Shown here piece by piece: positions 20,800-37,647 of a stretch of 64,000 nt of DNA; the first letter of the stretch is position 1, and each line of letters starts with the position of its first letter. The notes below the pieces were generated by a model. That model ran no database searches and had not been told where the DNA came from. It saw only the letters and a program-made list of their open reading frames with translations. The DNA comes from an uncultured Cohaesibacter sp. (lineage in GTDB: Bacteria > Pseudomonadota > Alphaproteobacteria > Rhizobiales > Cohaesibacteraceae), in NCBI RefSeq assembly GCF_963676275.1, contig NZ_OY781091.1, forward strand, positions 1,094,775 through 1,158,774, written 5' to 3'. The translations under genes were made by a program, and so were the position numbers.

Positions 20800-21062
20800 G
20801 ATCGGTCTCCAATGATAACTGCCAGTCAGATGAGTGTTTAATGATTTGGCACAATTGAACCTGTGAGAATTGCCAATAGGATCAGTGTGATAAGTTAATA
20901 AAATGCGAAATGTGAATTAAAACCAAGAATAATTTCAATAAATTACTAGTAATTAGTACGTATAATTGTTGATATTTATTTTCATTTTTGAATATATTTA
21001 TTTGAATGAATATTGAAACTTGTAAAAATCATTTGATTTAATGATATATATGAATGAGAAGA

Positions 21063-21100
21063 AGGTAAATTTACCTGATTGGATTGAAGTAAATTTACTT
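21063..21100. repeat. Pair of 14-bp perfect palindromes, 24 bp apart
   Basis: AGGTAAATTTACCT (21063-21076) and AAGTAAATTTACTT (21087-21100) are each perfectly symmetric and share the core GTAAATTTAC. The centres are 24 bp apart. They lie about 265-300 bp upstream of the chemoreceptor start (20799, minus) and about 185 bp from the end of the CobW-type gene. The rest of the 20800-21282 gap is AT-rich with no gene I can support. Confidence 0.6.
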
Positions 21101-21282
21101 ATGATAACAAAGGCGAGAAAATCTGCATGCTATGCGTTTTGCTGGCAAGTTGAGTTGCCGACATGAGCGATCTAATCTTGTTCGCGGCGCTGATGCGGGG
21201 TGACTTTCACAAAAGGAGAGGCTCGGTAGGATGGTGCTATTTCACGGAAGGCCTCTTTCCTATGCCTAATCGTCTGCTCGTC

Positions 21283-22473
21283 TTACAATATGTCTGATTT
21301 CAGGGCCGCAAACACGGTTTTCGCTGGCAGAGCATCGACGATAAAGACCAGTCCCGATTGCGTCAGACCATCAGGCCAGCCATCAAGGGCAACGGGTGGA
21401 TGCATCAGATCCTGAACTCCCTGTATGAGGCTTGGCCCCCTGTCGCCTTCAAACTGAACCAGCCCTTTGTACCGCAGCAGCTTTTCACCATGTTGCTTGC
21501 CCAGTTCCTCAAGCGCCGATAGAAGAAAATGGCGTGCGGGAGGCTTGCGGAAGGAAACAAGGAAGGTCTGAATGGACACCCCGTCCGCATGCTGATCATG
21601 CATATGCTGGTGCGGACCAGTATCATGCGTCTCTTGTTCGTGCTGGCCATGACTGTGCGCGTGATGATGCGCGTGATGATGCTCCTGTCCCTGACCCTGC
21701 GCATGGTGATGATCATGATCGCAGTAGCCAGTTTCAGCCATTTGAGACAGACCGTCATGAGCACTCTGATGGAGTGCCTGCCAGTGTCTATCCTGAGATT
21801 GGGCGGTCAGAAGGGCGTTGTCATCGATCCCGCCAGTGCCCAATATGTCGGAAGGGTCAATCTGACCGGCAAGGGAAATGGTTTGACGCGCCCCGGGATT
21901 GAGCCGGGCCAGTTCGCCTGTGAGTTGGGCGAGTTGCTCCCCGGATGCCAGATCGCTTTTGCTGATCACCAGATGATCTGCCATTGCCAGCTGATGCAGG
22001 CAGGTCTGATGGCCTCGCATGGTCCTTGGACCATTGACGCAGTCCACCACGGTGACCACCCGACCCAGACGATAGCTTTCCAGCAATAGTGGATCGGTCA
22101 TCAGGATTTGCATGATGGGCGCGGGGTCTGCAAGGCCGGTGGTTTCCAGAATGACCTGGTCAAACGGCGGCACTATACCGGCGTCGCGCTGGGCGACCAG
22201 ATCCAGCAGGGTCACAGCCATCTCGCCGCGCAATGTACAGCAGACACATCCGGATTTGAGCAGCACGACATCATCCGTGAGATTTTCGATCAACAGGTGA
22301 TCAATGCCGATCTCGCCAAATTCATTGACCAGCACAAGGCTGTTTTTGAAGTGAGGATGCGCAAGGATATGATTGAGGATGGTGGTTTTGCCCGCACCAA
22401 GGAAGCCGGTGATGATTGAGACGGGAATGGTTGTGTCATCATGATCTTCTGGTGCCTGATCGGTTTCAGTCAT
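21283..22473 (-). CDS. CobW/COG0523-family GTP-binding metallochaperone, His-rich
   Basis: The 396-residue G3E GTPase carries the P-loop GFLGAGKT (residues 23-30), the COG0523 metal motif SGCVCCTLRGE (CxCC) and SKSDLA as the base-specificity motif. A His-rich insertion (about residues 248-292) precedes the CobW C-terminal domain. Such proteins use GTP hydrolysis to hand zinc, cobalt or another metal to client enzymes. It is the last gene of the corrinoid operon and overlaps the DUF1638 gene by 8 bp. The UroD-type methyltransferases upstream need Zn and the corrinoid needs Co, so either delivery is plausible (inference). GGGAGAAAGACA precedes the ATG. Confidence 0.88.
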   Translation of the reverse strand: MTETDQAPEDHDDTTIPVSIITGFLGAGKTTILNHILAHPHFKNSLVLVNEFGEIGIDHLLIENLTDDVVLLKSGCVCCTLRGEMAVTLLDLVAQRDAGIVPPFDQVILETTGLADPAPIMQILMTDPLLLESYRLGRVVTVVDCVNGPRTMRGHQTCLHQLAMADHLVISKSDLASGEQLAQLTGELARLNPGARQTISLAGQIDPSDILGTGGIDDNALLTAQSQDRHWQALHQSAHDGLSQMAETGYCDHDHHHAQGQGQEHHHAHHHAHSHGQHEQETHDTGPHQHMHDQHADGVSIQTFLVSFRKPPARHFLLSALEELGKQHGEKLLRYKGLVQFEGDRGPSLIQGVQDLMHPPVALDGWPDGLTQSGLVFIVDALPAKTVFAALKSDIL

Positions 22474-23146
22474 TGTCTTTCTCCCTTTCCTGCATCATCA
22501 TTTCCAGCGTTATCGGGCAACCGGGAGGGACGACAAGCACATCCCTGTTGGTCTGGCCCTCGACCATCTGTCTGATCAGTTCTGAAGTGCCCGCAATCTC
22601 GACATAATCCAGCTCAAAGCTTGCGGCCATCGCGCGGGCATAGGCCCTGTCGCCTTCCGGATCCGGCGCGGAGGGCATGATGATATGGGCGATGCGGTCA
22701 TAATGGCCGAGCATCTTCTTCATCAGCTTGCGGGCCTTTTCCTCACCCCGTTTGGCTTTCACGCGCAGATATTCATCGAACAGCGAGCCGGTGTCATCGC
22801 CAATCCAGCCTCGGCTGAGGAAATAGGCTCCCGCTTCATTCAGCGCCCGCTGGCGTTGCTCTTGCTTTGATCCCAGAAAGACGCCGATGCAGTCATCGGT
22901 CTTGAAAAGCACCAGATGGGACTGCTTTGCCTCCAGCCCGACGGTGGCTTGCGAACAGAGGCCATAGCCAAGAAAGATCGGGTCATAAAGGCCATCAGCC
23001 CGGCTGACGGCATCCTGCAACGTGTCTCGCAGCTTGTTCGGTCTGGTATGTAGGCTGATGTCGAAGATCTCCACATCGGCATCAGATGGCAGAAAATCTC
23101 TCATCTCTGCTGCCATGACATTGCAAGTAATGGCTTTTGCGACCAT
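22466..23146 (-). CDS. DUF1638 domain protein of the corrinoid methyltransferase operon
   Basis: The 226-residue protein matches my memory of DUF1638: an early ITCNVMAAEMRDFLP, a GYGLCSQATVGLEA motif, FKTDDCIGVFLGSK, and VPPGCPITLEMM near the C terminus. Several Cys and acidic residues are placed as if to bind a metal or cofactor, but no activity is established that I know of. ATG 23146 is preceded by GAGGAGAAAGCC, a strong site; a longer frame adds residues without support. The family recurs beside UroD-type methyltransferases, corrinoid proteins and ASKHA reactivators, which points to a role in corrinoid C1 transfer. Confidence 0.8.
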   Translation of the reverse strand: MVAKAITCNVMAAEMRDFLPSDADVEIFDISLHTRPNKLRDTLQDAVSRADGLYDPIFLGYGLCSQATVGLEAKQSHLVLFKTDDCIGVFLGSKQEQRQRALNEAGAYFLSRGWIGDDTGSLFDEYLRVKAKRGEEKARKLMKKMLGHYDRIAHIIMPSAPDPEGDRAYARAMAASFELDYVEIAGTSELIRQMVEGQTNRDVLVVPPGCPITLEMMMQEREKDND

Positions 23147-23156
23147 GGCTTTCTCC

Positions 23157-24800
23157 TCAAAGTCCGCTGCGTGCGATGAATGCCCGCTGGAAATCGGGAT
23201 CAGAGGCCAGCTCAAGATAGGAAACCGAGCGGGCCAGCGCTTCTGCCTCCTGCCTTGCCTTCATGCAAACGCTGAGCCGCCGCACCCCTGCAGCGGCCGC
23301 ATTGCCAACCTGCGATATCCGGGCTCTGGGCAGATCGGGAAACAGGCCGATCCGCACCGCTTCATCTATGTCGATATAGCGTCCGAACGCTCCGGCAATG
23401 ACCAGTTGCTCAAGGTCGCTTTCATGAAGACCGGCGTGACCGAGCAGACAGTCAAGCCCCGCCCGGATGGCGGCCTTGGCCAGTTGCACATTGCGCAGGT
23501 CATCCTGTGTGAACAGAACCGGCAGCGCCTTGTGGGCAGGATCACGCCAGAGGACCAGCTCGCGCTGTTTGCCCCTGACCTCGATGGGCGCGCATGGCTG
23601 CATGCGTCCGCGTCGATTGACAAGCCCGGCATTGACCAGCGCAGCCACGGCAGAAACCACGCCCGAGCCACAAATGCCAACCGGCTCTTTGTTGCCAATG
23701 ACCTTGAGCGAGACCTTGTTGCCAGAAATCGCGACCGCTTCCACGGCGCCGGGTGCCGCGCGCATGCCACAGCTAAGTCTGCCGCCTTCAAAGGCTGGCC
23801 CAGAAGCGCAGGAAACACTGGTCAAGTGGCCATCCTTGTACAGGCCGATTTCCGTGTTGGTACCGATATCAAGCATCGCCCAGCAATCGGCCTTCACCGA
23901 CAGGCTGGTTTCATAGAGCGAGGTAACATGGTCGCCGCCAACGAAACCGGCAATGCTCGGCGCGACATAGATCCGGGCACCTTGGGCAATGTCGAGGCCG
24001 AAGTCGGCAGCATCCGCCTCGAAGGGGGCGGTGACCGAAGGGGTGTAAGGGGCACTCAGCAGCGTCTTGGTCGGCCATCCCATGGCCAGATGCTGCATGG
24101 CCGTGTTGCCTGCCAGCGAAACGAGCGCAATCATCCGGTTATTGCCCCCCGTCATGCGATGGGCCAGATGGCGGATGGTATCCAGCGCGGCAGCCTTGAG
24201 AGTTGCGGCATTCTCCAAACTGCACTTGGCCGCGCCAAGGCGACTGATCACATCGGCACCATAGGCTGTCTGGGGATTGGTCGCGGCACTGGTCTTGAGC
24301 AGCTTGCCGGTCACCATATCGACAAGGGCCGCAGCAATATTGGTTGTTCCAAGATCAACGGCGAGAGCAAGGGGCGCTCCGTCCAGAGGGCCGACACAGG
24401 CCCCGTCACCAATCCGCCACGTCCGGTCTTCGCCAGTTGGCTGCGCGACCGGTTGCCGGATCTCTGTTTCCGTGTTGCCGCCATCCTGCCCAAGCGCAAC
24501 ATTGGCCGCATAGCTCTTGGCCGGCACATGAATGTCTAGCGGGCCGGTAACGCGGATCTGGCAGGCCCTGCGCCAGCCATTCTCGATCTCGCTTGCCGAA
24601 AAGCGCTCAAGATCGGCATCTGACGGCGCCGGTATGTCTCCCTTATCACTTTCCAGCCTTACAATGCAGGATTTGCAAATGCCCCGGCCCGCACAAGCCG
24701 TCTCCACGCGCACCCCGGCGCGTCTGGCAACATCGAGCAGCAAGGTGCCGTCTTCCGCATCAATGACAGTGCCGGACGGATGAAAAGTAACCGAAACCAT
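23157..24800 (-). CDS. Ferredoxin-ASKHA corrinoid activation protein (RamA/DUF4445 type)
   Basis: The 547-residue protein opens with a 2Fe-2S ferredoxin domain holding Cys36, Cys42, Cys45 and Cys80 (CAGRGICKSC, then RRACQ), followed by a linker and an ASKHA ATPase-like domain (ALAVDLGTTNIAAALVDM, CWAMLDIGTNTEIGLY, GICGSGVVSAVAALVNAGLV, VIAGAFGRYIDIDEA). Proteins of this type use ATP to reduce accidentally oxidised Co(II) corrinoid back to active Co(I). AGGGAAATTCC lies before the ATG. Its position between methyltransferase and DUF1638 genes fits a dedicated reactivator for the corrinoid protein at 27158-27787. Confidence 0.9.
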   Translation of the reverse strand: MVSVTFHPSGTVIDAEDGTLLLDVARRAGVRVETACAGRGICKSCIVRLESDKGDIPAPSDADLERFSASEIENGWRRACQIRVTGPLDIHVPAKSYAANVALGQDGGNTETEIRQPVAQPTGEDRTWRIGDGACVGPLDGAPLALAVDLGTTNIAAALVDMVTGKLLKTSAATNPQTAYGADVISRLGAAKCSLENAATLKAAALDTIRHLAHRMTGGNNRMIALVSLAGNTAMQHLAMGWPTKTLLSAPYTPSVTAPFEADAADFGLDIAQGARIYVAPSIAGFVGGDHVTSLYETSLSVKADCWAMLDIGTNTEIGLYKDGHLTSVSCASGPAFEGGRLSCGMRAAPGAVEAVAISGNKVSLKVIGNKEPVGICGSGVVSAVAALVNAGLVNRRGRMQPCAPIEVRGKQRELVLWRDPAHKALPVLFTQDDLRNVQLAKAAIRAGLDCLLGHAGLHESDLEQLVIAGAFGRYIDIDEAVRIGLFPDLPRARISQVGNAAAAGVRRLSVCMKARQEAEALARSVSYLELASDPDFQRAFIARSGL

Positions 24801-24914
24801 TGGAATTTCCCTAAAATGCAGACCGTGCAACAGCGCTGGCTAATGGATGGCGCGGCATCAAAGCTCCTGCCGCGCCATGCATGGATTGTTGCTTGTTGGA
24901 AAGCATGTCGGATG

Positions 24915-25922
24915 CTAGGCGAGTGCCTTGTTATAGTCCGCAAGAACTCCAAAGAAGGCGTCGATATTGGCAAGAGGTGTGCCCGGAGGGATGTCGCATC
25001 CCGAGGACAGGACAAAGTTGCCAAACGGCTTCATCTCTTCCAGCAGCGCCTGCGTTGCTTCTGCCACCATCTCCGGTGTCCCGATGCGAAACAGGGCCGC
25101 AGGATCGATATTGCCAGAGAAGAGGCGATCTTGAGGAATCTGCTCAGCGATATCCGGCATCTTGACCGTATTGCCCAGATGCAGCATGGCGGCTCCGGTT
25201 TCCAGCATCGCCGGGATCTGCTTGGTCGCATTGCCGCAATTGTGCAGCACCACCGCAAAGCTGTCATCCTGCACCAGATCGACAAGTTCCCTGACATAAT
25301 CCATGGCAAAGCTCTTGGCCGCCTTGGGCGAGATGAGACCGGCCAGAGGTTCGGCGATGACAACGCCGGACACACCGGTTTTCTTGACTTCCTGCAAATA
25401 GGCCTTGAGGAATTCATTGGCCTTGGCCAATGTGGCTTCCACCAGCTCCGGTTTCTTGCGCGTGGCCAGAAGGGTCTTGTTGATGTCAAGCAGGCGACCT
25501 GCCAGCGAGAAGGGGCCAATCACGCCGCCAAAGACCGGGCGGTCTGATATGGCTTTGGCCGTTTCTTCCATGCCCAGAAGATATTCGCCGAGCCGCTTTT
25601 CATCGACCGCAGGCACTCGGAGCGCATTTGCACTTTCGACATCTTCCACCAGCGAACCGATCGCGTTGGGAACCTCATCTTCGGAAAAGACGATTTCGGC
25701 TCCGAAGGCCTCGGCCTCCACCGACAGATCCATCATGGTGACGGCGGCCGCAGTCGGATAGCGCTCGGCAAGGGCTGCAATGACTTCGGCCTGCTTTCTG
25801 CCGCAGGTTACCACTTCCATGATGGTGGTGCCCGTCAGTTCCATGCCCGGATAGGTCATGACCGGGATCGCGGAAACGGTCGGCGCATCCAGAAGGGCGG
25901 TCTTCCATTCAGTAATATTCAT
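24915..25922 (-). CDS. UroD-fold corrinoid methyltransferase, MtaA/MtbA-like
   Basis: The 335-residue protein belongs to the uroporphyrinogen decarboxylase superfamily but has the zinc ligands of methylcobamide methyltransferases: His227 and Cys229 in LHNCGNATK and Cys309 in SSGCDIPPGTP. These bind Zn, which activates a thiol or similar acceptor in MtaA/MtbA. True HemE is longer and lacks this H-x-C...C set. It probably moves the methyl group between the corrinoid protein and a C1 acceptor; in an alphaproteobacterium tetrahydrofolate is more likely than coenzyme M (inference). AGAGAGAATTGGA precedes the ATG. Confidence 0.85.
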   Translation of the reverse strand: MNITEWKTALLDAPTVSAIPVMTYPGMELTGTTIMEVVTCGRKQAEVIAALAERYPTAAAVTMMDLSVEAEAFGAEIVFSEDEVPNAIGSLVEDVESANALRVPAVDEKRLGEYLLGMEETAKAISDRPVFGGVIGPFSLAGRLLDINKTLLATRKKPELVEATLAKANEFLKAYLQEVKKTGVSGVVIAEPLAGLISPKAAKSFAMDYVRELVDLVQDDSFAVVLHNCGNATKQIPAMLETGAAMLHLGNTVKMPDIAEQIPQDRLFSGNIDPAALFRIGTPEMVAEATQALLEEMKPFGNFVLSSGCDIPPGTPLANIDAFFGVLADYNKALA

Positions 25923-26013
25923 TCCAATTCTCTCTTGTCACGATTGAAAGTCGAGGACATCCCGGCAGGGCGTGCTGCTCCCCCGCCGGGACATCGAGAA
26001 GCGCCTCTGGGGA

Positions 26014-27156
26014 TCAGGCGCTACCAAATTCATGGGTCGCCAGAACCAGCGCGTCGACATTGGCTTTGGGCGTGTTATATGGCATGTCGCAGCCGGTATT
26101 CATGACAAGGCCGGTCTTGCCCAGATCCTTGATGAGATCGCGCACATAGGCGCGCACATCATCGGGACTGCCTGCTGCCAGAATAGAGGAGGGCACATCG
26201 CCAAGGACCGGCATGTGATCGCCCAGAATGTCACGCGCCCGTCTCAAGTCCGTGGAGCCGTCGGTCGAGAGCACGCAGGCCCCCTTTGGCAGCTCGAGGA
26301 AGCGCTCTATGTCGCGGTCCCAGTTGGAATCGAAATGCAGAACGGAGCGGACCCCGGCTTCATGCAGCTTCTCGACCAGTTCCACATAATAGGGCCATAC
26401 GAACCGGTTCCAGATTTTCGGAGACACCATGTTGGACGCCGCGCGCCAGCCGCCAACCCAGACGCCCATGACGCCGCAAGCTCTGGAGGCATTGATGGCA
26501 AGGTCGACCCAGAATGGCATGCCCAGCTTGAGCACGTCCTCGACCTTGTCAGGCATCTTGTAGCAATCACGGAAGAATTTGCCCATGGAGCGGCCGCCAC
26601 AGACAGTCTCGAAGGGTATCTCTGTGACAGCCCCAACGAGCGGTTCATAGCCGCGGTCACGGTAGCGCTTGCCAAGGGTCGGCACATTCTTTTCCATCCA
26701 GTCCGCATGGATCTGGAGCAGCTCGGGATTGTGAACCTTGGGGCGAATGACATCGAGATAGGCTTCCCAGCCATTATCCAGAATATAGTCATAATCCTCC
26801 GGCTTCATCACTTCCTTTTCCGCCACCTGCCAAAGGTCATTGTCGGGCAGTTCGAAGCCCGGAATATCGACCTTGGCCCACCATTGCTCGGTCAGAAGGC
26901 ATGGGAAGCAGCCAGCCTGAGTGGTGTTGATGCCATCGATTTCCGCAACAGCGCAGATATCATCCATGGTGTCGATGGAAGCGGCCAGCGCTTCATCCGG
27001 TTTGGCGCAAAAGTCCGCCAGCGTCAGCCCCTGTGCCACAGGGGCATAGCCCGGTCCGGAAAAAAGAAAGGGAACCCGGTCCACCTTTTCGAAGGCAAGG
27101 GATTTTTCAATGCGGTTCTGTCGCTCCTTGAGGAGCTCTTCATTGGTCTTGGTCAT
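26014..27156 (-). CDS. Second UroD-fold methyltransferase, probable substrate:corrinoid step
   Basis: The 380-residue protein is another UroD-superfamily member with a longer N-terminal region (KVDRVPFLFSGPGY) and an inserted segment around residues 85-130. Its metal site is a variant: His274 and Asp276 in LHFDSNWDRD with Cys356 in NTGCDMPYNTP, so Asp replaces the first Cys of MtaA. It starts one base after the stop of the corrinoid gene and is probably translationally coupled to it. The tight pairing suggests that it demethylates the growth substrate onto the corrinoid while the other UroD protein unloads it; the reverse is possible. The substrate is unknown. Confidence 0.8.
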   Translation of the reverse strand: MTKTNEELLKERQNRIEKSLAFEKVDRVPFLFSGPGYAPVAQGLTLADFCAKPDEALAASIDTMDDICAVAEIDGINTTQAGCFPCLLTEQWWAKVDIPGFELPDNDLWQVAEKEVMKPEDYDYILDNGWEAYLDVIRPKVHNPELLQIHADWMEKNVPTLGKRYRDRGYEPLVGAVTEIPFETVCGGRSMGKFFRDCYKMPDKVEDVLKLGMPFWVDLAINASRACGVMGVWVGGWRAASNMVSPKIWNRFVWPYYVELVEKLHEAGVRSVLHFDSNWDRDIERFLELPKGACVLSTDGSTDLRRARDILGDHMPVLGDVPSSILAAGSPDDVRAYVRDLIKDLGKTGLVMNTGCDMPYNTPKANVDALVLATHEFGSA

Positions 27157-27157
27157 C

Positions 27158-27787
27158 TCATGCTACCCAGTCTTGTGCTTGGCGAACGGCTTTCTGAGCG
27201 TCGGGGGAATAGGCATCCGCACCGACGATGCGGCGCACATTCTCATCGACAGGGCCGCCGCCGATCATGATCTTGACATCGTCCCGCATGCCATTTTCGG
27301 CAATCAGGTCAATGGTTTCCTTCATCGAGTCAAAGGCCAGCGTGAGCAGACCGGACATACCCACGATGCGCGCGCCTGTTGCCTTGACGCTGTCAATAAA
27401 GGCCTGCGGGGCCACATCTACGCCCAAATCAATGACGGTAAAATTGGCCGCCTTGAGCATGTTGACGACAATGTCCTTGCCGATATTGTGGACATCGCCC
27501 TTGACGGTGCCCATGACAATTGTGCCCTTGGTCTCGCCACCGCTTGCAGCAAGCAGAGGCGTCAGGATCTCGGCAATGGCCGTGAAGACTTCGCCGGACA
27601 TCATCAGGTCCGAGACGAAATATTCCTCCTCTTCGAACAGCTCGCCCACCCGCTCCATGGCGGATTGACAGACCGAGAGCAGGTCATTCGCCGATGCGCC
27701 TTCTTCAAGGCACTGTTTTACAAGCTCAACCGCCTCATCTTCATCTAACTCGACTATGGCATCTTTGAGCTGGTCAAGTTTGTTCAT
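27158..27787 (-). CDS. Methyltransferase corrinoid protein (MtaC/MtbC/MttC type)
   Basis: The 209-residue protein consists of an N-terminal four-helix cap domain (about residues 1-85) and a B12-binding Rossmann domain with the base-off motif GTVKGDVHNIGKDIV. His100 is the lower cobalt ligand of the DxHxxG signature, and GLLTLAFDSMKETI and IMIGGGPVD complete the cobalamin pocket. It shuttles the methyl group between the two UroD-type enzymes encoded downstream. AAGGAGTAGAAGC is an excellent ribosome-binding site. Length and domain order match stand-alone corrinoid proteins of methylamine and methanol systems. Confidence 0.94.
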   Translation of the reverse strand: MNKLDQLKDAIVELDEDEAVELVKQCLEEGASANDLLSVCQSAMERVGELFEEEEYFVSDLMMSGEVFTAIAEILTPLLAASGGETKGTIVMGTVKGDVHNIGKDIVVNMLKAANFTVIDLGVDVAPQAFIDSVKATGARIVGMSGLLTLAFDSMKETIDLIAENGMRDDVKIMIGGGPVDENVRRIVGADAYSPDAQKAVRQAQDWVA

Positions 27788-27897
27788 GCTTCTACTCCTT
27801 GATTGCAGCCCGCAAGGGGCTGTTCATTGACTGTCGGGGAAAGGGTGGGCGACCGGCATGATGTGGTCGCCCTACGCTCAATTGCGGAAAAAAGGGA

Positions 27898-29160
27898 TCA
27901 GGCGCTTTGCTCCAGCGGCATCTTCAGGGCCGGTTTGCCGACCTTGCGCGGTGCGGTTTCCTTAAGGAAAAGCGTCATGACGAGGCCGACACCAAGGCCA
28001 CAGATTGCGACATAGAAAATATATTGAATGCCCGCGCTGTGAGCGATTGCCCCGGCAAGGATCGGTACAAGCCCCCCGCCGATAAATTCGCCAATGCCGA
28101 CGGTAACGCCTGTGGCGGCTCCCATCAGTGTGCCGGGGACGGACTCGTTGGCAATCGGCCCGGTAGACAGCCCGATGATGCCCTGACTGAAGAAGAAATT
28201 CAGAAACAGGATGCAGAAGAGCAGCGGCGCACTGGCCGGGGCATTGATCAGAACGATGACGGTGCCAAGGCACAACAGGCCACCAAACAGGGCCGTTGTC
28301 TTGCGGCCGATATAGTCCGAGATGGCAGGGACGGCAAAAGCGCCAGCCGCAGCCCCGAAGCCCAGCCCCGAGAGCACAAAGCCCATTTGCACCATTTGAA
28401 GATGCAGATAATCTGTAAGATAATTGGCGATCAGGGCGGCAATGGTGATTTCGCAGGCGAGCCAGCCTAGCACCATGAACAGATTCACCCAGATATTGCG
28501 ATATTTGAAGACCTCGCCCCATTTATGCTCGGAGATGTCCTTGTCTGTCGTATGCTGGGCCTTCGCCTTTGCCGGAATCTCGCGGATCACCTTGTAAAGA
28601 AAGAAGCCGATGATGAGGCCCGGTATCGTGACGATCGCGAAAATCCAGCGCCAGCTGACGCCATTGCTCATCAGCCAGACCACGAAAATCGGCCCCAGCG
28701 CCATGCCGAACAGGGGCATCATGGCTTGCTGAAGCCCGAAATTGCGGCCCTGTCGCTCAGGCTTGGTCGCCGAGATGGTGGCGACGATGGAGGAGGGGGT
28801 GAAGGCCCCTTCGGTAATGCCGATAATGGCGCGGATGATGACAAGGCCGACAAGGCCGGTTGCAACGCCGCTCACACCTGCCGCTATGGAAAAGGCGATC
28901 AGCGACGGGATCAGCACCTTGCGCAGGCCCCACTTGTCGACGAGCCCGCCGGAAAAAAAGGAGGAAGCCCCCCATGCCAGACTGAGGGCACCGGCAATGA
29001 TGCCGATATCTCCATAATTGAGCCCAAGTTCTTTCTGCATGGCGGGAAAAATCGCCATGATCATGAAGCGGTCAACACCCACAAGGCCGAAGCCGAGCGA
29101 AAGCAGAAGCACGGCCTTCCACTCATAGCTGACATCCCATTTCTGATTTGAATCGGTCAC
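27898..29160 (-). CDS. MFS transporter heading the corrinoid methyltransferase operon
   Basis: This 420-residue, 12-helix MFS protein has the loop motif GGLVDKWGLRKV, ITEGAFTPSSIVATISATKP and a second-half DYIGRKTTALFGG. The early Asp-Arg-Phe in GLVGVDRFMI resembles the conserved D-R of anion:cation symporters. It starts at GTG 29160 behind GGGAGTGAGAAA. As first gene of the operon it probably imports the methylated substrate, and the symporter type hints at an organic anion such as a methoxylated acid or a betaine-like zwitterion (inference). The 110-bp gap to the corrinoid gene shows no obvious terminator. Confidence 0.83.
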   Translation of the reverse strand: MTDSNQKWDVSYEWKAVLLLSLGFGLVGVDRFMIMAIFPAMQKELGLNYGDIGIIAGALSLAWGASSFFSGGLVDKWGLRKVLIPSLIAFSIAAGVSGVATGLVGLVIIRAIIGITEGAFTPSSIVATISATKPERQGRNFGLQQAMMPLFGMALGPIFVVWLMSNGVSWRWIFAIVTIPGLIIGFFLYKVIREIPAKAKAQHTTDKDISEHKWGEVFKYRNIWVNLFMVLGWLACEITIAALIANYLTDYLHLQMVQMGFVLSGLGFGAAAGAFAVPAISDYIGRKTTALFGGLLCLGTVIVLINAPASAPLLFCILFLNFFFSQGIIGLSTGPIANESVPGTLMGAATGVTVGIGEFIGGGLVPILAGAIAHSAGIQYIFYVAICGLGVGLVMTLFLKETAPRKVGKPALKMPLEQSA

Positions 29161-29565
29161 TTTCTCACTCCCGGATCGAGCGGATGGCGTTTGGCATCGC
29201 TGCCGGTTCCTCCATGCTATCCGCTTTCATGCCGCGCTATTGTGCCAGTCAGGGGAATGCGGCGCGGCAGGCATCATTCCACTCGCAGTCATACTGAAGT
29301 TGAGTCTCCACCACTCATGATCACTGCTCGAAAATGATTAAAGACCAAAAGTGATGAGCAATCAGATTTGTCAAAATGTCGCAGCGCTGCTTGCGCCGGT
29401 GCTTATGTACGCGGCACTGAAACGCAGGCATGTCAGATGCGCTTTGCGCAAAGATATTGGCGGGAGGAAAAAGCCATAGAAATCATAACGATGCATATGT
29501 ATCGCAATGTGGTTCAATGCATTTGGTCAATCTGATCACCGTCCAAACTTGACGAAATATCAATA
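29161..29565. other. Divergent control region between the MFS gene and the riboswitch
   Basis: About 400 bp without a supportable gene. It holds GACCAAAAGTG at 29343-29353, repeated exactly at 29594-29604 beside the riboswitch, and the reverse complement TTTGGTCA of its TGACCAAA core at about 29523. These are candidate sites for the TetR-type regulator, but I cannot tell which, if any, are bound. Confidence 0.4.
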
Positions 29566-29593
29566 TTGACAAGCTGTGGGAAAAAATTAGTAT
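29566..29593 (+). promoter_or_regulatory. Sigma70-type promoter of the riboswitch transcript
   Basis: TTGACA (29566-29571), a 16-bp spacer and TAGTAT (29588-29593) predict a start near 29600, just before the first paired bases of the cobalamin riboswitch. Confidence 0.65.
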
Positions 29594-29603
29594 GACCAAA
29601 AGT

Positions 29604-29791
29604 GGAGTGCCGATGCTCGATTCAGCATTGGCTAAGAGGGAATCTGGGGTCGATAAAATCAAGTCGATAAACCAGAACTGCCCCCGCAACTGTATGTGTG
29701 AAGTTCATGAATGACGAACCACTGGCATTGTGAAGACGATGTTGGGAAGGCAATTCATGAATGCCGAAGCACCAGTCAGGAAACCTGCTCC
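29604..29791 (+). ncRNA. Cobalamin (B12) riboswitch
   Basis: The aptamer hallmarks appear in order: closing GGAG/CTCC helix, P2 arm GCCGATGCTC/AGCATTGGC, TAAGAGGGAATCTGG, the CCCCGCAACTGT core (B12-box region), CCACTGG, TGGGAAGGC and GCCGAAGC...CCAG...ACCTGC. Downstream, CGAG (29808-29811) can pair with CTCG (29821-29824), placing GGGAGG in the loop directly before ATG 29826, so translation control of the next ORF by masking its ribosome-binding site is likely. It is on the plus strand, divergent from the corrinoid operon, and leads into a 56-codon ORF and a TetR gene rather than a B12 synthesis or uptake gene. Confidence 0.93.
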
Positions 29792-29825
29792 GCGAAGATT
29801 GGCTGATCGAGAGCGGGAGGCTCGG

Positions 29826-29996
29826 ATGATTGGGCATTGCCGCGTTTATCACGCCAAGGGCTGCGTGCTTATTCCGGTGACGTCGTCATTTCGACGGGTT
29901 TGCATCATGTCCTGCGACATGATTTCCGGTCCCCAGCTGATTATCAAGAATGAACCGCGGATGGACTCCGTCATCGCTTGGTTAGGAAGAAGCTGA
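29826..29996 (+). CDS. Small ORF directly under the cobalamin riboswitch, 56 residues
   Basis: ATG 29826 lies 5 nt after GGGAGG, which sits in the loop of a CGAG/CTCG hairpin. The protein starts MIGHCRVYHAKGCVLIP, has four Cys (5, 13, 27 and 30), and ends DSVIAWLGRS. I do not recognise a family; it does not look like CbtB. Its stop is 8 bp before the TetR ATG, so it could be a short protein, a leader ORF coupling TetR translation to the riboswitch, or a gene remnant. Its position at the regulated ribosome-binding site is the main argument that it is translated. Confidence 0.5.
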   Translation: MIGHCRVYHAKGCVLIPVTSSFRRVCIMSCDMISGPQLIIKNEPRMDSVIAWLGRS

Positions 29997-30004
29997 GAGA
30001 AGCC

Positions 30005-30754
30005 ATGAAGAAGAAGAGAACGGCTCTTGCTGAAGTGCCCACAGTCGAGATTGATAGCAAGATGGATTCAGAAGAGCGCGTCGTTGGCGGGCGGGTCAAG
30101 CGTCGTCAGAAAAAGACCCGTATTCGGTTGCTCAAGGCCGGATATGGTCTGATCACCGAAAAAGGCATTGATGAGACGGCGATCATGGAGATCACCGACG
30201 CTGCCGATGTCGGCTTTGGTACCTTCTATAATTATTTCTCCTCCAAAGACGATATCGCGATGCAGATTCTGGATTGCGTGGTGCACGCCCTTGGCGAACG
30301 GTCCGACGCCGTCAACAAGGCTTGCAACATTGATGATCCGGTACTGATCATCGCCAATTCCGTTCGCCTGACTGCCCATGCCATGATGAAAGATCCGATG
30401 TGGAAGTCCTGGCTCAAGCGCACGGACCTGATGGTCCAGCGCATGCGCGACGTGTTCAGGCCCTTCGGTATTCGCGACATGCAGCGGGCCGTGGATGCGG
30501 GCATGTATCATATTCCCAATGACAATCTGGAATCCGCCTGGAGCCTGCATATCTGGCTGCTGACCGGTAAGATCACGGATATCGCCCACGGCTATTGCGC
30601 GCCAGAGTCAGAAATGCAGATGTGTGAATCCATCATGCGCATGATGGGGGTCGAGCAGGAAAAGGCTCATGCTGTCTCGGTCGGGCCCTTGCCATCGGCT
30701 CCACCGCTCAAGATTGATTTCTCCTATATTCACGAAAGCGGCGAAACCGATTGA
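30005..30754 (+). CDS. TetR-family transcriptional regulator
   Basis: The 249-residue protein has a TetR HTH at about residues 35-80: a helix with KTRIRLLKAGYGLITEKG, the recognition part ITDAADVGFGTFYNYFSSKD and IAMQIL. A long basic N-terminal tail precedes it and the helical ligand domain follows. I start at ATG 30005; an in-frame TTG 27 nt earlier lies inside the preceding ORF. It is the second ORF of the riboswitch transcript and divergent from the corrinoid operon, so it probably controls that operon, sensing either the methylated substrate or a product (inference). A B12 riboswitch ahead of a TetR gene is uncommon. Confidence 0.87.
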   Translation: MKKKRTALAEVPTVEIDSKMDSEERVVGGRVKRRQKKTRIRLLKAGYGLITEKGIDETAIMEITDAADVGFGTFYNYFSSKDDIAMQILDCVVHALGERSDAVNKACNIDDPVLIIANSVRLTAHAMMKDPMWKSWLKRTDLMVQRMRDVFRPFGIRDMQRAVDAGMYHIPNDNLESAWSLHIWLLTGKITDIAHGYCAPESEMQMCESIMRMMGVEQEKAHAVSVGPLPSAPPLKIDFSYIHESGETD

Positions 30755-30784
30755 GCCGTGGCGGCAAGAGGATTGCACGGCAAT

Positions 30785-30857
30785 GTTGGCTGGCTCTTCC
30801 GGCCAACTCCGGGCTCAAGGGTGGAGGAGGGGCATTTTGCGCTTTGGCAAAAAGCGC
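30785..30857 (+). terminator. Two stem-loops after the tetR gene
   Basis: GTTGGCTGG/CCGGCCAAC (30785-30807) and GCGCTTT/AAAGCGC (30839-30857) form two hairpins between the TetR gene and the next MFS gene. Neither has a good U-run, so termination is only a possibility. Confidence 0.3.
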
Positions 30858-31039
30858 TGGCTTTGACCGGCTGCCGATGGTATGAGGCTTGAGCGTCGCA
30901 GCAAAGCCAGCTTCTACCGGCTCAATATCTCCAGAATTCGCAATTCCTGCCAGTATGGCTGCTTCCTTCACTGCCATCGCATTTGTATCTTTTCCCGTCC
31001 CCGTATCGATCCGATCTGACGATTTTGAGGAACTCCGCA

Positions 31040-32341
31040 ATGACAGAACAGAACGGTCTGCACTCCGCAGGGGCCGCTGCCAATCAGAACCGAAGTGCCA
31101 GAACGGCCCATTTCGCCGAACCGAACATGCCCTTCGCGGAATTCATCGTCCTGATGGCGCTGCTGATGTCGCTGGCGGCCCTGTGTACCGATTCCATCAT
31201 GCCCGCATTTGGCGTCATTGGTGAGGAATTCGGTCACAATACGCCGCAGGAACTGCAGAAGATCATCACCATCTTCTTTGCCGGGTTGGCCATCGGACAG
31301 CTCATTTACGGGCCGCTTTCCGACCAGATCGGGCGCAAGAGCGGCATGTTTATCGGGCTGGTGATCTTCATCATCGGCAATCTGATAAGCTGGTTTTCGA
31401 CCAGCTTTGAAATGTTGCTGCTGGGGCGCTTTCTTCAGGGCTTCGGCGTGGCTGGTCCGCGCATCGTGATGATCGCGCTCATCCGCGATCTCTATGCGGG
31501 GCGTGAAATGGCGCGCATCATGTCCTTTGTCATGGGGCTTTTCATTTTCGTTCCAGCCTTGGCGCCCATCACCGGCCAGACCATCATGGCCATTTCCGGC
31601 TGGCGGTCGGTCTTCTTTTCTTTCATCCTGTTGTCCAGCATCGGCGGCATCTGGCTCGCGATCCGGCAGAATGAAACCCTGCATGCCTCAAGGCGCATCC
31701 GCGTTACGCCCGCCAATCTGTGGCGGGGGACGAAGATCATTTTCACCACGCCAAGCTGCCTTGGTTATATGGTTGCCGTCGGCTTCGTTCAGGGGCCTTT
31801 CATGCTCTATCTCAGCACGGCGCAGCATCTGTTCCAGTCCACTTACGGGCTGGGTACCCTGTTTCCCTATGCCTTTGCCGGACTTGCCATTTCACTCGGT
31901 TTTGCCTCTTTCATGAACAGCAAGCTGGTGCTGCGCTTTGGCATGCGTTATCTCGTGCGCCGGGCACTTGTTGCCATCATTTTCATTTCGGCACTCACCC
32001 TTGCCTGCACCATGCCGTTTGATTTCATCCCGGATCTGTGGATGCTGTTCCTTTTCTTCAGCCCGCTGTTTTTCTGCACCGGTTTGCTCTTTGGCAACAT
32101 GAACACCCTTGCCATGGAAGAGGTGGGCAATGTGGCCGGGCTGGCATCCGCATGGGTGGGGGCAATCTCGACGCTGATCGCCATGACAATCGCCACCCTG
32201 ATGGGACAGATCTATGACGGTTCCATTCTGGCTTTGCTAGGCAGCTTCCTGTTTGGCGCAGTCATAACCATGTTTCTGACAATTTTCACAGAACGCTGGC
32301 GGGATCGCAGGGACAGCGAACAGAGTGCCACGGCCCAATGA
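31040..32341 (+). CDS. MFS transporter, Bcr/CflA drug-resistance type
   Basis: The 433-residue protein has 12 helices and the DHA1 signatures of Bcr/CflA exporters: an early TDSIMPAFGVIGEEFG, YGPLSDQIGRKSGMFIGL between helices 2 and 3, LGRFLQGFGVAGPRIVMIALIRDLY in the helix 4-5 region (motif C-like), and VSAWVG-like GLASAWVGAIST in the second half. It probably exports small hydrophobic compounds by proton antiport. GAGGAACTCCGCA precedes ATG 31040; an earlier in-frame start at 30983 lacks such a site. It follows the TetR gene on the same strand after 285 bp, so co-regulation is possible but not shown. Confidence 0.87.
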   Translation: MTEQNGLHSAGAAANQNRSARTAHFAEPNMPFAEFIVLMALLMSLAALCTDSIMPAFGVIGEEFGHNTPQELQKIITIFFAGLAIGQLIYGPLSDQIGRKSGMFIGLVIFIIGNLISWFSTSFEMLLLGRFLQGFGVAGPRIVMIALIRDLYAGREMARIMSFVMGLFIFVPALAPITGQTIMAISGWRSVFFSFILLSSIGGIWLAIRQNETLHASRRIRVTPANLWRGTKIIFTTPSCLGYMVAVGFVQGPFMLYLSTAQHLFQSTYGLGTLFPYAFAGLAISLGFASFMNSKLVLRFGMRYLVRRALVAIIFISALTLACTMPFDFIPDLWMLFLFFSPLFFCTGLLFGNMNTLAMEEVGNVAGLASAWVGAISTLIAMTIATLMGQIYDGSILALLGSFLFGAVITMFLTIFTERWRDRRDSEQSATAQ

Positions 32342-35460: not shown

Positions 35461-37647
35461 ATGCTAGAATTTGCCCGAATGTTCATGTCGATTGCGGGGC
35501 TCGGCTTGCCGATGGGACTGATTATGGTTCTGTCCGGGCGCGTCAGATATCGCAATGAACTGGACACTTTCTTGCGGCTGGTATCAGCCTATTGCATCTC
35601 GATTATCCTCTATTGGGTGATTGGCTACGGCATATATAGCGGCGACACCATACATGGGATGGTTGGCGCAAACGGTGGTATTCTCAACCGGTTGGACCTG
35701 ATGCAGGGGGAACCGGATCTCTATCTCCTCGTCCTGTTTGCCATTCCGCCCATCGCAGCCGCAGCAGCCATGGTCGAGCGCGGCCGCTATCAGGTGGGCA
35801 ATCTTCTCGTTGCAGCGGTTGCGGTGCTCGTCGCTCCTGTCACCGCGCACTGGAGCAAGCATTCCGGGCTTGATGGTGAAGGCTGGCTGTTTGCGCATGG
35901 CTTCAAGGATATTGGTGGGCTGGTCGTCATCTTTCTTTCCGCCGGATTTGTTGCTCTTGCCGTGTCCATCGTGCTCGGGACGCGCCTTGGGCGCTTTCCC
36001 ATGCAGATGGGGCGGCCGCGCGGCCATAGCCCGACATGGTATGGCATGGGTGTCATCCTGATCGTGACCTCGACGATCATCCTCACCGCCATGCAGGCCG
36101 AAAGCATAGAGGCGATGAGTACGGCCTTCTATGTCATGCTGATTGGCGTCAGTTTCTCCGCCGTATCCGGCTCGGTGCTGCCGCTTCTGTTTCGGCGGAG
36201 CGAAACCACGCAGACCGTCTCGACCTCGGTGCTGGCCGGAACCGTCGCCCTGACGGCAGTGGCTTCCTTTGCCGAGCCAGCGGATGCGGCGCTGATCGGA
36301 ATGCTCTCCGGTGCCTTCTCTGTCGGTTTCAATCACATTCTGGAGACGATCGAGGTCGATGATCCGGGCGAACTGATTTCGGCCTTTCTGTCCGGTGGCT
36401 TTGTCGGTGGGCTGATGGCCCCGCTGGCCTGGTCTGGAACAAGCGCATCTCTGGCCAGCGAGTTTGTAACCCAACTGGTGGGCATCTGCGCCATCGCGGG
36501 CTGGTCATTTTGCGTGACGCTGCTGGTGGCCCTCTTGTTGAAGTTCACCATTGGCCTGCGCGTCAGCGAAACGGATGAAAAGCGCGGCCTTTCCATCTCG
36601 CATTTCGGCTTTTCCAGCGAACCGGATTTCATCATCTCCAGAGTGATGCATTTCAACGATCAGCCCCAACATGCCGAGGGCGAGCGGAATTCGGCATTGA
36701 CCGCACTGGCGGCGAATTTCTCATCCTCCATCGTCAAGCTGCATGAGGAAACCAGCAAGGCGAGCGAGCGTATTCTGTCCACCAGTTCCGATCCCAAGAA
36801 AGGGGCGGCGATGGTGGCGCGCATCCGGCTGGCGGAAGACAGCGTTCGCGTCAAAGCCGAAGATATCCTGATGCTGCTCGAAGACATCCTGAAAACCGGA
36901 GAAGGGGGAGATCTGGGAAGCGAGCGCTTTCGGCAATGGGGTCAGGAAGCGGTCGACAAGCTGCTTTCCCCGGTAGAAAATGACATCAAGAAGCTGGCCC
37001 GGCATATTCCATTGCAGGCGGACCTGTCTGAGCTTGAGAATATCATCATAACAGCGGCGGAAATCCTGTCTCAGGGTGTGCATCAGATCGAACTGATGCG
37101 CGATCTGGAAGAAGCGCAGGTCGAAGGCTTTTTCTCTCGCGATCATATTTGTGATTTTGCCCTGCTGTTGCACGAGAAGAGCCGCCGTATCAAGGCCGTC
37201 GCCGAAGTGCGCAATCGGCCGGTTCAGATCGATTGTGCTGTCACCAAGGGATTGACCGTCAATGGCGATGCGAATGCCTTCTCCCGTATTCTCCTGCTGA
37301 CAGTGGAGGGCGCACTCAACCGTCAACTGAGCGATGGGGTCAAGCCGGTCCGCATCGAGTTGAAGGAGCACAGCTCCGGGCAATATGTCATTCTCGATTG
37401 TCTGGACACGGGGACAGCATTGTCCGCGCGCCAAATCCGGGCCATTCGCGATCCTCTCAGTGAAGATCGGGCTCTGGATGAATTGGGGCTGGGGCAGATC
37501 CTGCCGCTCATTCTGGTTTCCCAGCTTGTCAGGGCAATGGGCGGGGAATTTGCCATTTCGAGCGAACATCAGGCCGGAACCCATTTGCGCTGTCGCTTCA
37601 GAAAAAGACAGAAGAAAATCCAGAAGAGCCCGCGCAAGGCCGCCTGA
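35461..37647 (+). CDS. Amt-fold membrane sensor fused to a histidine-kinase-like ATPase domain
   Basis: The 728-residue protein joins an 11-helix Amt/MEP/Rh-like domain (about residues 1-375) to a cytoplasmic region ending in a HATPase-like domain (about 575-705). Amt landmarks are WSKHSGLDGEGWLFAHGFKD with Asp150, LAGTVALTAVASFAEPADAA, and VDDPGELISAFLSGGFVGGL. Both pore-histidine positions are non-His: I157 or F158 for the first, A308 or F309 for the second. The ATPase has an N-box-like EGALN, a weak G1 (DTGTAL) and GLGQILPLILVSQL. I find no clear H-box. It is more likely an ammonium or pH sensor than a transporter. No partner response regulator is adjacent. Confidence 0.8.
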   Translation: MLEFARMFMSIAGLGLPMGLIMVLSGRVRYRNELDTFLRLVSAYCISIILYWVIGYGIYSGDTIHGMVGANGGILNRLDLMQGEPDLYLLVLFAIPPIAAAAAMVERGRYQVGNLLVAAVAVLVAPVTAHWSKHSGLDGEGWLFAHGFKDIGGLVVIFLSAGFVALAVSIVLGTRLGRFPMQMGRPRGHSPTWYGMGVILIVTSTIILTAMQAESIEAMSTAFYVMLIGVSFSAVSGSVLPLLFRRSETTQTVSTSVLAGTVALTAVASFAEPADAALIGMLSGAFSVGFNHILETIEVDDPGELISAFLSGGFVGGLMAPLAWSGTSASLASEFVTQLVGICAIAGWSFCVTLLVALLLKFTIGLRVSETDEKRGLSISHFGFSSEPDFIISRVMHFNDQPQHAEGERNSALTALAANFSSSIVKLHEETSKASERILSTSSDPKKGAAMVARIRLAEDSVRVKAEDILMLLEDILKTGEGGDLGSERFRQWGQEAVDKLLSPVENDIKKLARHIPLQADLSELENIIITAAEILSQGVHQIELMRDLEEAQVEGFFSRDHICDFALLLHEKSRRIKAVAEVRNRPVQIDCAVTKGLTVNGDANAFSRILLLTVEGALNRQLSDGVKPVRIELKEHSSGQYVILDCLDTGTALSARQIRAIRDPLSEDRALDELGLGQILPLILVSQLVRAMGGEFAISSEHQAGTHLRCRFRKRQKKIQKSPRKAA

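Follow-up and report, generated by a model that had tools for sequence, protein, structure and literature searches.

A cobalamin riboswitch on the leader of a RolR-like TetR gene may tie B12 supply to a divergent corrinoid methyltransferase operon in Cohaesibacter

Why should a cobalamin riboswitch stand in front of a gene for a TetR-family regulator, beside an operon of corrinoid enzymes, and what might such an arrangement achieve? As a rule, B12 represses the genes that its riboswitches control. The targets of these riboswitches have been described as falling into four functional categories, namely genes for B12 synthesis, B12 uptake, cobalt transport and B12-independent isozymes (PMC3766115). 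The locus considered here lies in a stretch of 64,000 nucleotides from an uncultured Cohaesibacter sp. (contig NZ_OY781091.1), the whole of which we refer to as the window. The riboswitch and the gene that it precedes comprise the following features.

29566..29593, + strand: sigma-70-like promoter of the riboswitch-tetR transcript, TTGACA(29566)-16-TAGTAT(29593)
29588..29806, + strand: cobalamin riboswitch aptamer, RF00174
29683..29687, + strand: L5 loop CCCGC, complementary to GCGGG (29813-29817) of the downstream hairpin, a putative kissing loop read from the sequence
29808..29824, + strand: P13-like platform hairpin, CGAG (29808-29811) with CTCG (29821-29824), carrying the Shine-Dalgarno (SD) sequence GGGAGG (29815-29820) in its loop, read from the sequence
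29826..29996, + strand: leader ORF (uORF) of 56 codons
30005..30754, + strand: tetR, a RolR-like TetR-family regulator and probable repressor

The aptamer claimed in the original prediction was confirmed by cmscan, which matched the full RF00174 model (positions 1-189) with 86.5 bits and an E value of 6.1e-20 against a gathering cut-off of 31.5, the sole Rfam match at gathering threshold within the window. A syntenic copy in a second species of the genus (genome G002, locus L036) scored 92.4 bits, and from the score and the conserved second copy together a chance origin of the match is excluded. Between these copies, two sequences only, 40 of the 51 pairs of the model are standard in both, seven of them varying on one side with pairing retained; none of the pairs that are standard in the window is lost in the second species, one is standard only there and ten are non-standard in both. 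The promoter that had been ascribed to the riboswitch was likewise recovered in a consensus scan (10 of 12 matches), and in the second species its -35 hexamer is identical and its -10 hexamer has one change, a single base over both.

Could the aptamer nevertheless be a decaying copy of another riboswitch, brought in with its promoter and deprived of its function? It is the weakest of the five RF00174 matches in its own genome (5.03 Mb, one contig), the other four reaching 116-128 bits, its outer helix is poor, with 5 of 12 model pairs non-standard, and it groups, on long branches, with three riboswitches of the genus, two metE-like and one cobW-like. Set against this are scores well above cut-off in both species, the seven pairs that vary on one side yet stay paired, the absence of any loss among the window-standard pairs, and the retention of the promoter, L5, hairpin loop, SD and ATG in the second species, so that we regard decay as very improbable. 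A metE-like origin of the aptamer was not relied on, since the grouping rests on those long branches.

An intrinsic terminator was rejected as the expression platform, as no terminator-like site was found in 29100-30100. What can be read directly before ATG 29826 is the hairpin that had been foreseen, CGAG/CTCG with GGGAGG in its loop, and the covering of the SD by it is a prediction. The segment comprising the SD, the hairpin loop and the ATG, GAGCGGGAGGCTCGGATGATT, is identical in the two species, and both also have an alternative stem, GAGC/GCTC (29811-29814/29820-29823). L5 and the hairpin share five contiguous complementary bases, identified by eye, which are invariant in the two species and thus show no covariation; a kissing loop is needed by several corrinoid riboswitches (PMC10653944). 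Folding of short pieces gave a mixed picture: in the 50-base piece of the window the SD prefers a different pairing, not the hairpin loop, five of the six SD bases of the second species lie in the loop of GAGC/GCTC, and a piece from another riboswitch of the genus (L138) also folds with its SD in a loop. None of the three pieces was clearly more stable than its shuffled counterparts (z from -0.55 to -1.02).

The start codon below this hairpin opens the 56-codon frame, whose stop codon (29994-29996) lies 8 bases before the tetR start. In agreement with the original prediction, its product has no family match in Pfam or NCBIfam; the further claim that this ORF is a gene under the control of the riboswitch did not hold. 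In the second species the SD and start are identical, but a one-base insertion shifts the frame, which then stops after 30 codons, 86 bases before tetR, and another frame with a weak start (GTG, L036 8900-9070) overlaps the tetR start there. Because the start signal is kept and the frame is not, the 56-residue peptide is not a conserved gene, and it was rejected as a conserved protein. An ORF with its SD and start under the platform and upstream of the main gene, as found here with ATG 29826 and GGGAGG in the loop, is what a riboswitch-controlled uORF consists of, and the ORF is best read as a translated regulatory leader whose start would be covered by the riboswitch, its use by ribosomes being predicted. 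That it encodes instead a functional small protein which is the main target of the riboswitch, with tetR merely carried along, would accord with the good and conserved SD and start codon and with the similarity of the first residues in the two species (MI-HC-VYHA). We hold this to be highly improbable, given that a relative with 94% identity in TetR does not keep the frame, that Pfam and NCBIfam give no match, and that short ORFs with unconserved ends occur after other B12 riboswitches of the genus.

These other riboswitches were surveyed through every one of the 102 RF00174 matches that the 18 genus genomes contain (L001-L004, L097-L192, the window and L036; L165 is shortened by a contig end), a leader being defined as an ATG with an exact SD of at least five bases, 25-61 bases after the B12 box, and 200 dinucleotide shuffles serving as the control. 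Leaders follow 26 of the 102 riboswitches, as compared with a mean of 3.1 and a maximum of 9 in the 200 shuffles, and 24 of 100 when the two tetR riboswitches are excluded; with four SD bases the count is 45 (shuffled, 12.3) and with six it is 17 (shuffled, 0.8), all of these being counts over related sequences that are not independent of each other. One of the 26 leaders (L167) is in frame with its main gene. Among twelve riboswitches with related main genes, six have a leader, and these share the start and first residues and differ in length (44, 53, 84, 47, 44 and 77 codons). The same SD-in-loop hairpin directly before the ATG is present at L128, L138 and L144. Taken together, the survey suggests that a riboswitch placed over the start of a leader, and not over that of the main gene, is a recurrent design among the B12 riboswitches of this genus. 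Where genes were called automatically, a distance of 100-700 bases often separates the leader ORF from the main gene.

The regulator itself was confirmed as a TetR-family protein by Pfam matches to TetR_N (38.3 bits, cut-off 24) and TetR_C_40 (38.2 bits, cut-off 27), while its role as the protein regulated by the riboswitch, also part of the original prediction, is still a prediction. Its start is likely ATG 30005, within a longer frame that starts at TTG 29978. The best PDB sequence is that of 3AQS/3AQT (E 2.4e-22), which is RolR, the resorcinol-responsive TetR transcriptional repressor of Corynebacterium glutamicum, where resorcinol is held by a hydrogen-bond network of Asp94, Arg145, Arg148 and Asp149 (PMC3086911). 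In an alignment read by eye with an inferred numbering offset of 16, Asp94, Arg148 and Asp149 are kept in the window TetR and Arg145 is replaced by Phe; the position of Asp149 (D158 in the window TetR) is invariant in 12 of 12 aligned proteins.

Relatives of this TetR were found at 18 loci elsewhere. No RF00174 match was present near the relatives at the 17 of these loci that were scanned (every one except L055, a weak match), near 11 class-level TetR matches with flanks of 1.5 kb, or in L008-L012 and L037, a scan that stopped short of the weak TetR matches L013-L035. Two relatives lie near URO-D genes (L041 and L044), the TetR gene of L044 being followed by a URO-D and an MFS gene, and four lie near P450 genes (L038, L041, L042 and L049), the P450 of L041 being closest to a CYP199 entry. 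CYP199A4 is a 4-methoxybenzoate O-demethylase. The P450 and URO-D neighbours of these regulators thus point to the demethylation of methoxylated aromatics as a theme common to their loci. At L041 (5877-10663) the TetR relative is near the CYP199-like P450, a URO-D methyltransferase and a protein with an MTHFR domain, and genes for oxygen-dependent and corrinoid-type demethylation may share one regulator there.

Divergent from the riboswitch, and running from 29160 down to 21283, is a corrinoid methyltransferase operon, as proposed originally and now substantiated by Pfam and NCBIfam domains. Its genes, in order of transcription, are as follows.

27898..29160, - strand: MFS permease, first gene of the operon (Pfam)
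27158..27787, - strand: corrinoid (B12-binding) protein, MtbC/MtgC-like (B12-binding and B12-binding_2 domains; NCBIfam matches below cut-off)
26014..27156, - strand: URO-D family corrinoid methyltransferase, probable substrate methyltransferase (Pfam; best PDB sequence CdmB, E 1e-16)
24915..25922, - strand: URO-D family methyltransferase, MtaA/CmuA-like (Pfam; NCBIfam matches below cut-off)
23157..24830, - strand: RACo, reductive activase of the corrinoid protein (Pfam)
22466..23215, - strand: DUF1638 protein (Pfam)
21283..22473, - strand: CobW-family GTPase, last gene of the operon (Pfam)

The operon probably serves to demethylate a methoxylated aromatic or a related methyl donor. CdmB is described as a methyltransferase for chloromethane which, though a close relative of O-demethylases, does not use methoxylated aromatics (PMC13222342). 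This counts against taking a methoxylated aromatic as the settled substrate. The mlp gene clusters offer a second point of reference, being defined by at least two Mlps, a corrinoid protein and a Ram protein in the same direction, with no tetrahydrofolate methylase within 20 kb (PMC10418091). The window operon has two URO-D proteins, a corrinoid protein and RACo in one direction, with no assumption that both URO-D enzymes are Mlps, and none of the 40 window ORFs scanned, which are a part of the ORFs within 20 kb, gave a pterin-binding Pfam match.

How closely the operon, riboswitch and tetR belong together can be judged from their distribution. Among the 18 genomes of the genus, its own included, the locus is present in one other, that of the second species, and tetR accordingly in 2 of 18; the proteins are 94% (TetR), 95% (MFS), 93% (URO-D), 92% (corrinoid protein), 89% (second URO-D), 85% (DUF1638), 77% (RACo) and 59% (CobW) identical. 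When 397 genomes of the order were sampled, two had TetR (E up to 1e-20), and the same two, with no others, had the URO-D enzyme (E up to 1e-40). In a sample of 385 genomes of the class, distant TetR relatives (28-39% identical) were found in eight besides the own genome and the URO-D enzyme, at E 1e-40, in none besides it, so that members of this TetR family also occur independently of that enzyme. The flanking genes give the borders of the unit. Directly downstream of tetR and on the same strand is a Bcr-family efflux gene (30983-32341), present in 17 of the 18 genus genomes, the one miss (G005) being only 64% complete. Of eight Bcr loci compared with the window, only that of the second species carries the intervening genes; in the other seven, a homologue of the chemoreceptor (MCP) gene that starts near 20.8 kb in the window is separated from the Bcr-family gene by 0.5-0.9 kb in which blastn found nothing that matches 20.9-30.97 kb of the window. 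The site being empty in all seven relatives, the operon, riboswitch and tetR make up a single accessory block, roughly 10 kb long.

20883..30971, no strand assigned: accessory block of operon, riboswitch and tetR, approximate borders; missing at the corresponding site in all of the other relatives examined (7 of 7)
29489..29504, palindrome, no strand assigned: CGATGCATATGTATCG, in a conserved island upstream of the tetR promoter, candidate regulator site

The Bcr-family gene, found throughout most of the genus and outside the inserted block, was rejected as part of the unit. The single block is in our opinion the strongest argument from sequence that operon, riboswitch and tetR may work together.

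Whether TetR acts on the operon is a question of its operator. The palindrome at 29489-29504 keeps 14 of its 16 bases in the second species and lies in a conserved island of an intergenic stretch that has diverged elsewhere, and its best match in 11 other relatives tested was at most 11 of 16; it may be the operator of TetR or of another regulator. A comparison of palindromes around the TetR relatives found no shared operator. For the motif TTRATCA-N-TGATYAA, which was chosen after the palindromes had been seen, the best score was reached by none of 60 shuffles in L041 and L044, by 2% in L042 and by 5% in the window, as against 52% of the shuffles in the second species and upwards of 25% in each of the seven remaining regions, and no operator could be named from this search. 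The riboswitch might thus regulate tetR while TetR controls only itself, the downstream Bcr-family gene or distant genes. Besides the fact that no operator was identified, the position of the Bcr-family gene directly behind tetR on the same strand and the occurrence of distant TetR relatives without the URO-D enzyme would agree with such other targets. We judge them unlikely, because the Bcr-family gene is present in 17 of 18 genus genomes, as opposed to two for TetR, and lies outside the block, whereas TetR co-occurs with the operon in the order and several of its relatives are near catabolic genes.

The reading that we prefer is that the B12 riboswitch would switch off translation in the leader of an mRNA for a repressor, TetR, which would act on the divergent operon. 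At high B12, base pairing between L5 (29683-29687) and the hairpin loop (29813-29817) would hide the leader SD. The leader would then stay untranslated and tetR would be poorly expressed, either because translational coupling is lost or because Rho terminates transcription within the ribosome-free leader; simple stop-start coupling is weakened in the second species by the leader that ends 86 bases before tetR. TetR would repress the divergent operon until an aromatic effector releases it, much as resorcinol does with RolR. In this way B12, by which less TetR would be made, and substrate, by which TetR would be released, could jointly open the B12-requiring operon, and its enzymes would probably be produced only with both cofactor and substrate present.

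As a whole, this combination of a B12 OFF switch on the TetR leader, repression of the divergent corrinoid operon by TetR and release by an aromatic is the best explanation of the locus, and we put its chances slightly above even. The wider interpretation, that of a portable block in which an OFF-riboswitch is converted to an ON response by a substrate-sensing repressor, with the translated leader covered, and which would constitute an AND gate on a B12-dependent demethylase operon, we would place a little below even. The two-layer circuit put forward in the original prediction stands as a prediction and is strengthened by the fact that, of 397 order genomes, the 2 with TetR are also the 2 with the URO-D enzyme, and by the insertion of the whole block as one; the part of it that made the 56-residue ORF a regulated gene had to be given up. 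So far, only two species are known to have the arrangement.

That TetR would act as a repressor is assumed by analogy with RolR. If TetR were an activator, or needed a co-effector, B12 would lower expression of the operon, as it does with conventional B12-repressed genes. The regulatory sign cannot be read from sequence, and most B12-riboswitch genes do respond in that direction. We nonetheless consider an activator quite unlikely, since RolR, the nearest relative with a solved structure, is named a transcriptional repressor in its title and since repressing a B12-dependent operon amid plentiful B12 would seem to make little metabolic sense.

Each element of the preferred reading has a counterpart among described systems. 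The ppe2 riboswitch of Mycobacterium tuberculosis is a B12 OFF switch in which expression of the main gene depends on translation of a short leader ORF, possibly with a part for reinitiation or Rho; the leader effect is predicted in our case, and PPE2 is a product of uncertain function under a proposed Class IIb variant, unlike the probable repressor beside a B12-dependent operon found here (PMC11260477). At Listeria pocR, too, a B12 riboswitch adjusts a transcription factor, with the outcome that the cell makes B12-dependent enzymes only in the presence of B12, but there it governs an antisense RNA against an activator, whereas the window has a sense leader of a probable repressor (PMC9943018). 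An activating corrinoid riboswitch similarly raises expression with corrinoid, the RNA itself activating by way of an intrinsic terminator, in contrast to the OFF-type platform of the window, where the predicted rise would come about through the repressor (PMC10653944). RolR belongs to the same TetR subfamily by sequence, with three of four resorcinol-binding residues kept by eye, and differs by the one changed effector contact and in that no riboswitch is mentioned in the excerpt of its report (PMC3086911). CdmB and the O-demethylase type systems likewise comprise a related methyltransferase with a corrinoid protein and an activating enzyme, but the similarity is distant, CdmB uses haloalkanes, and the window operon adds MFS, DUF1638 and CobW proteins (PMC13222342), of which DUF1638 and CobW are also absent from the excerpt on mlp clusters (PMC10418091).

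In the open-licence literature, among the matches listed, no title reports a B12 riboswitch before a TetR gene. The parts are all of known kinds, and their combination, a sense leader with a uORF, a probable repressor and a divergent B12-dependent operon in one block, was not found in that literature among the matches listed, so the wiring looks new. If true, placing a riboswitch before a repressor would invert the sign of the response without any new RNA mechanism, and the cell would be spared costly B12 enzymes when B12 is absent. If the leader-ORF design is confirmed, it would extend the mycobacterial mechanism to another bacterial genus (PMC11260477), and it would caution annotators that a short ORF following a B12 riboswitch may serve as a leader in regulation.

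Within the genus the tetR-linked position is rare, since only 2 of the 102 B12 riboswitches precede this tetR. Many of the others precede what we take to be genes for binding proteins, ABC transporters, BtuB, CobW/DUF1636 or MetE, named from the starts of their sequences, with a family search for L147 and L098 only, and there may be a further regulator among these genes. Two riboswitches, in L147 (364-1587) and L146 (genomes G009 and G005), score about 119 bits with RF00174 and lie directly upstream of a GbcA-like gene; that of L147, the only one searched, is closest to GbcA, a glycine betaine monooxygenase subunit (E 3.2e-145, below the curated cut-off). This gene may represent a B12-independent demethylation route that is repressed by B12, parallel to metE. 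In L098 (genome G004) a riboswitch of 86.6 bits is followed at first only by short ORFs, and a gene like that of the 3-keto-5-aminohexanoate cleavage enzyme (below the curated cut-off) comes about 750 bases after the B12 box. Outside the block, the window also encodes a 728-residue protein (35461-37647) that combines an ammonium transporter domain with an ATPase region of histidine-kinase type whose match narrowly misses the Pfam cut-off.
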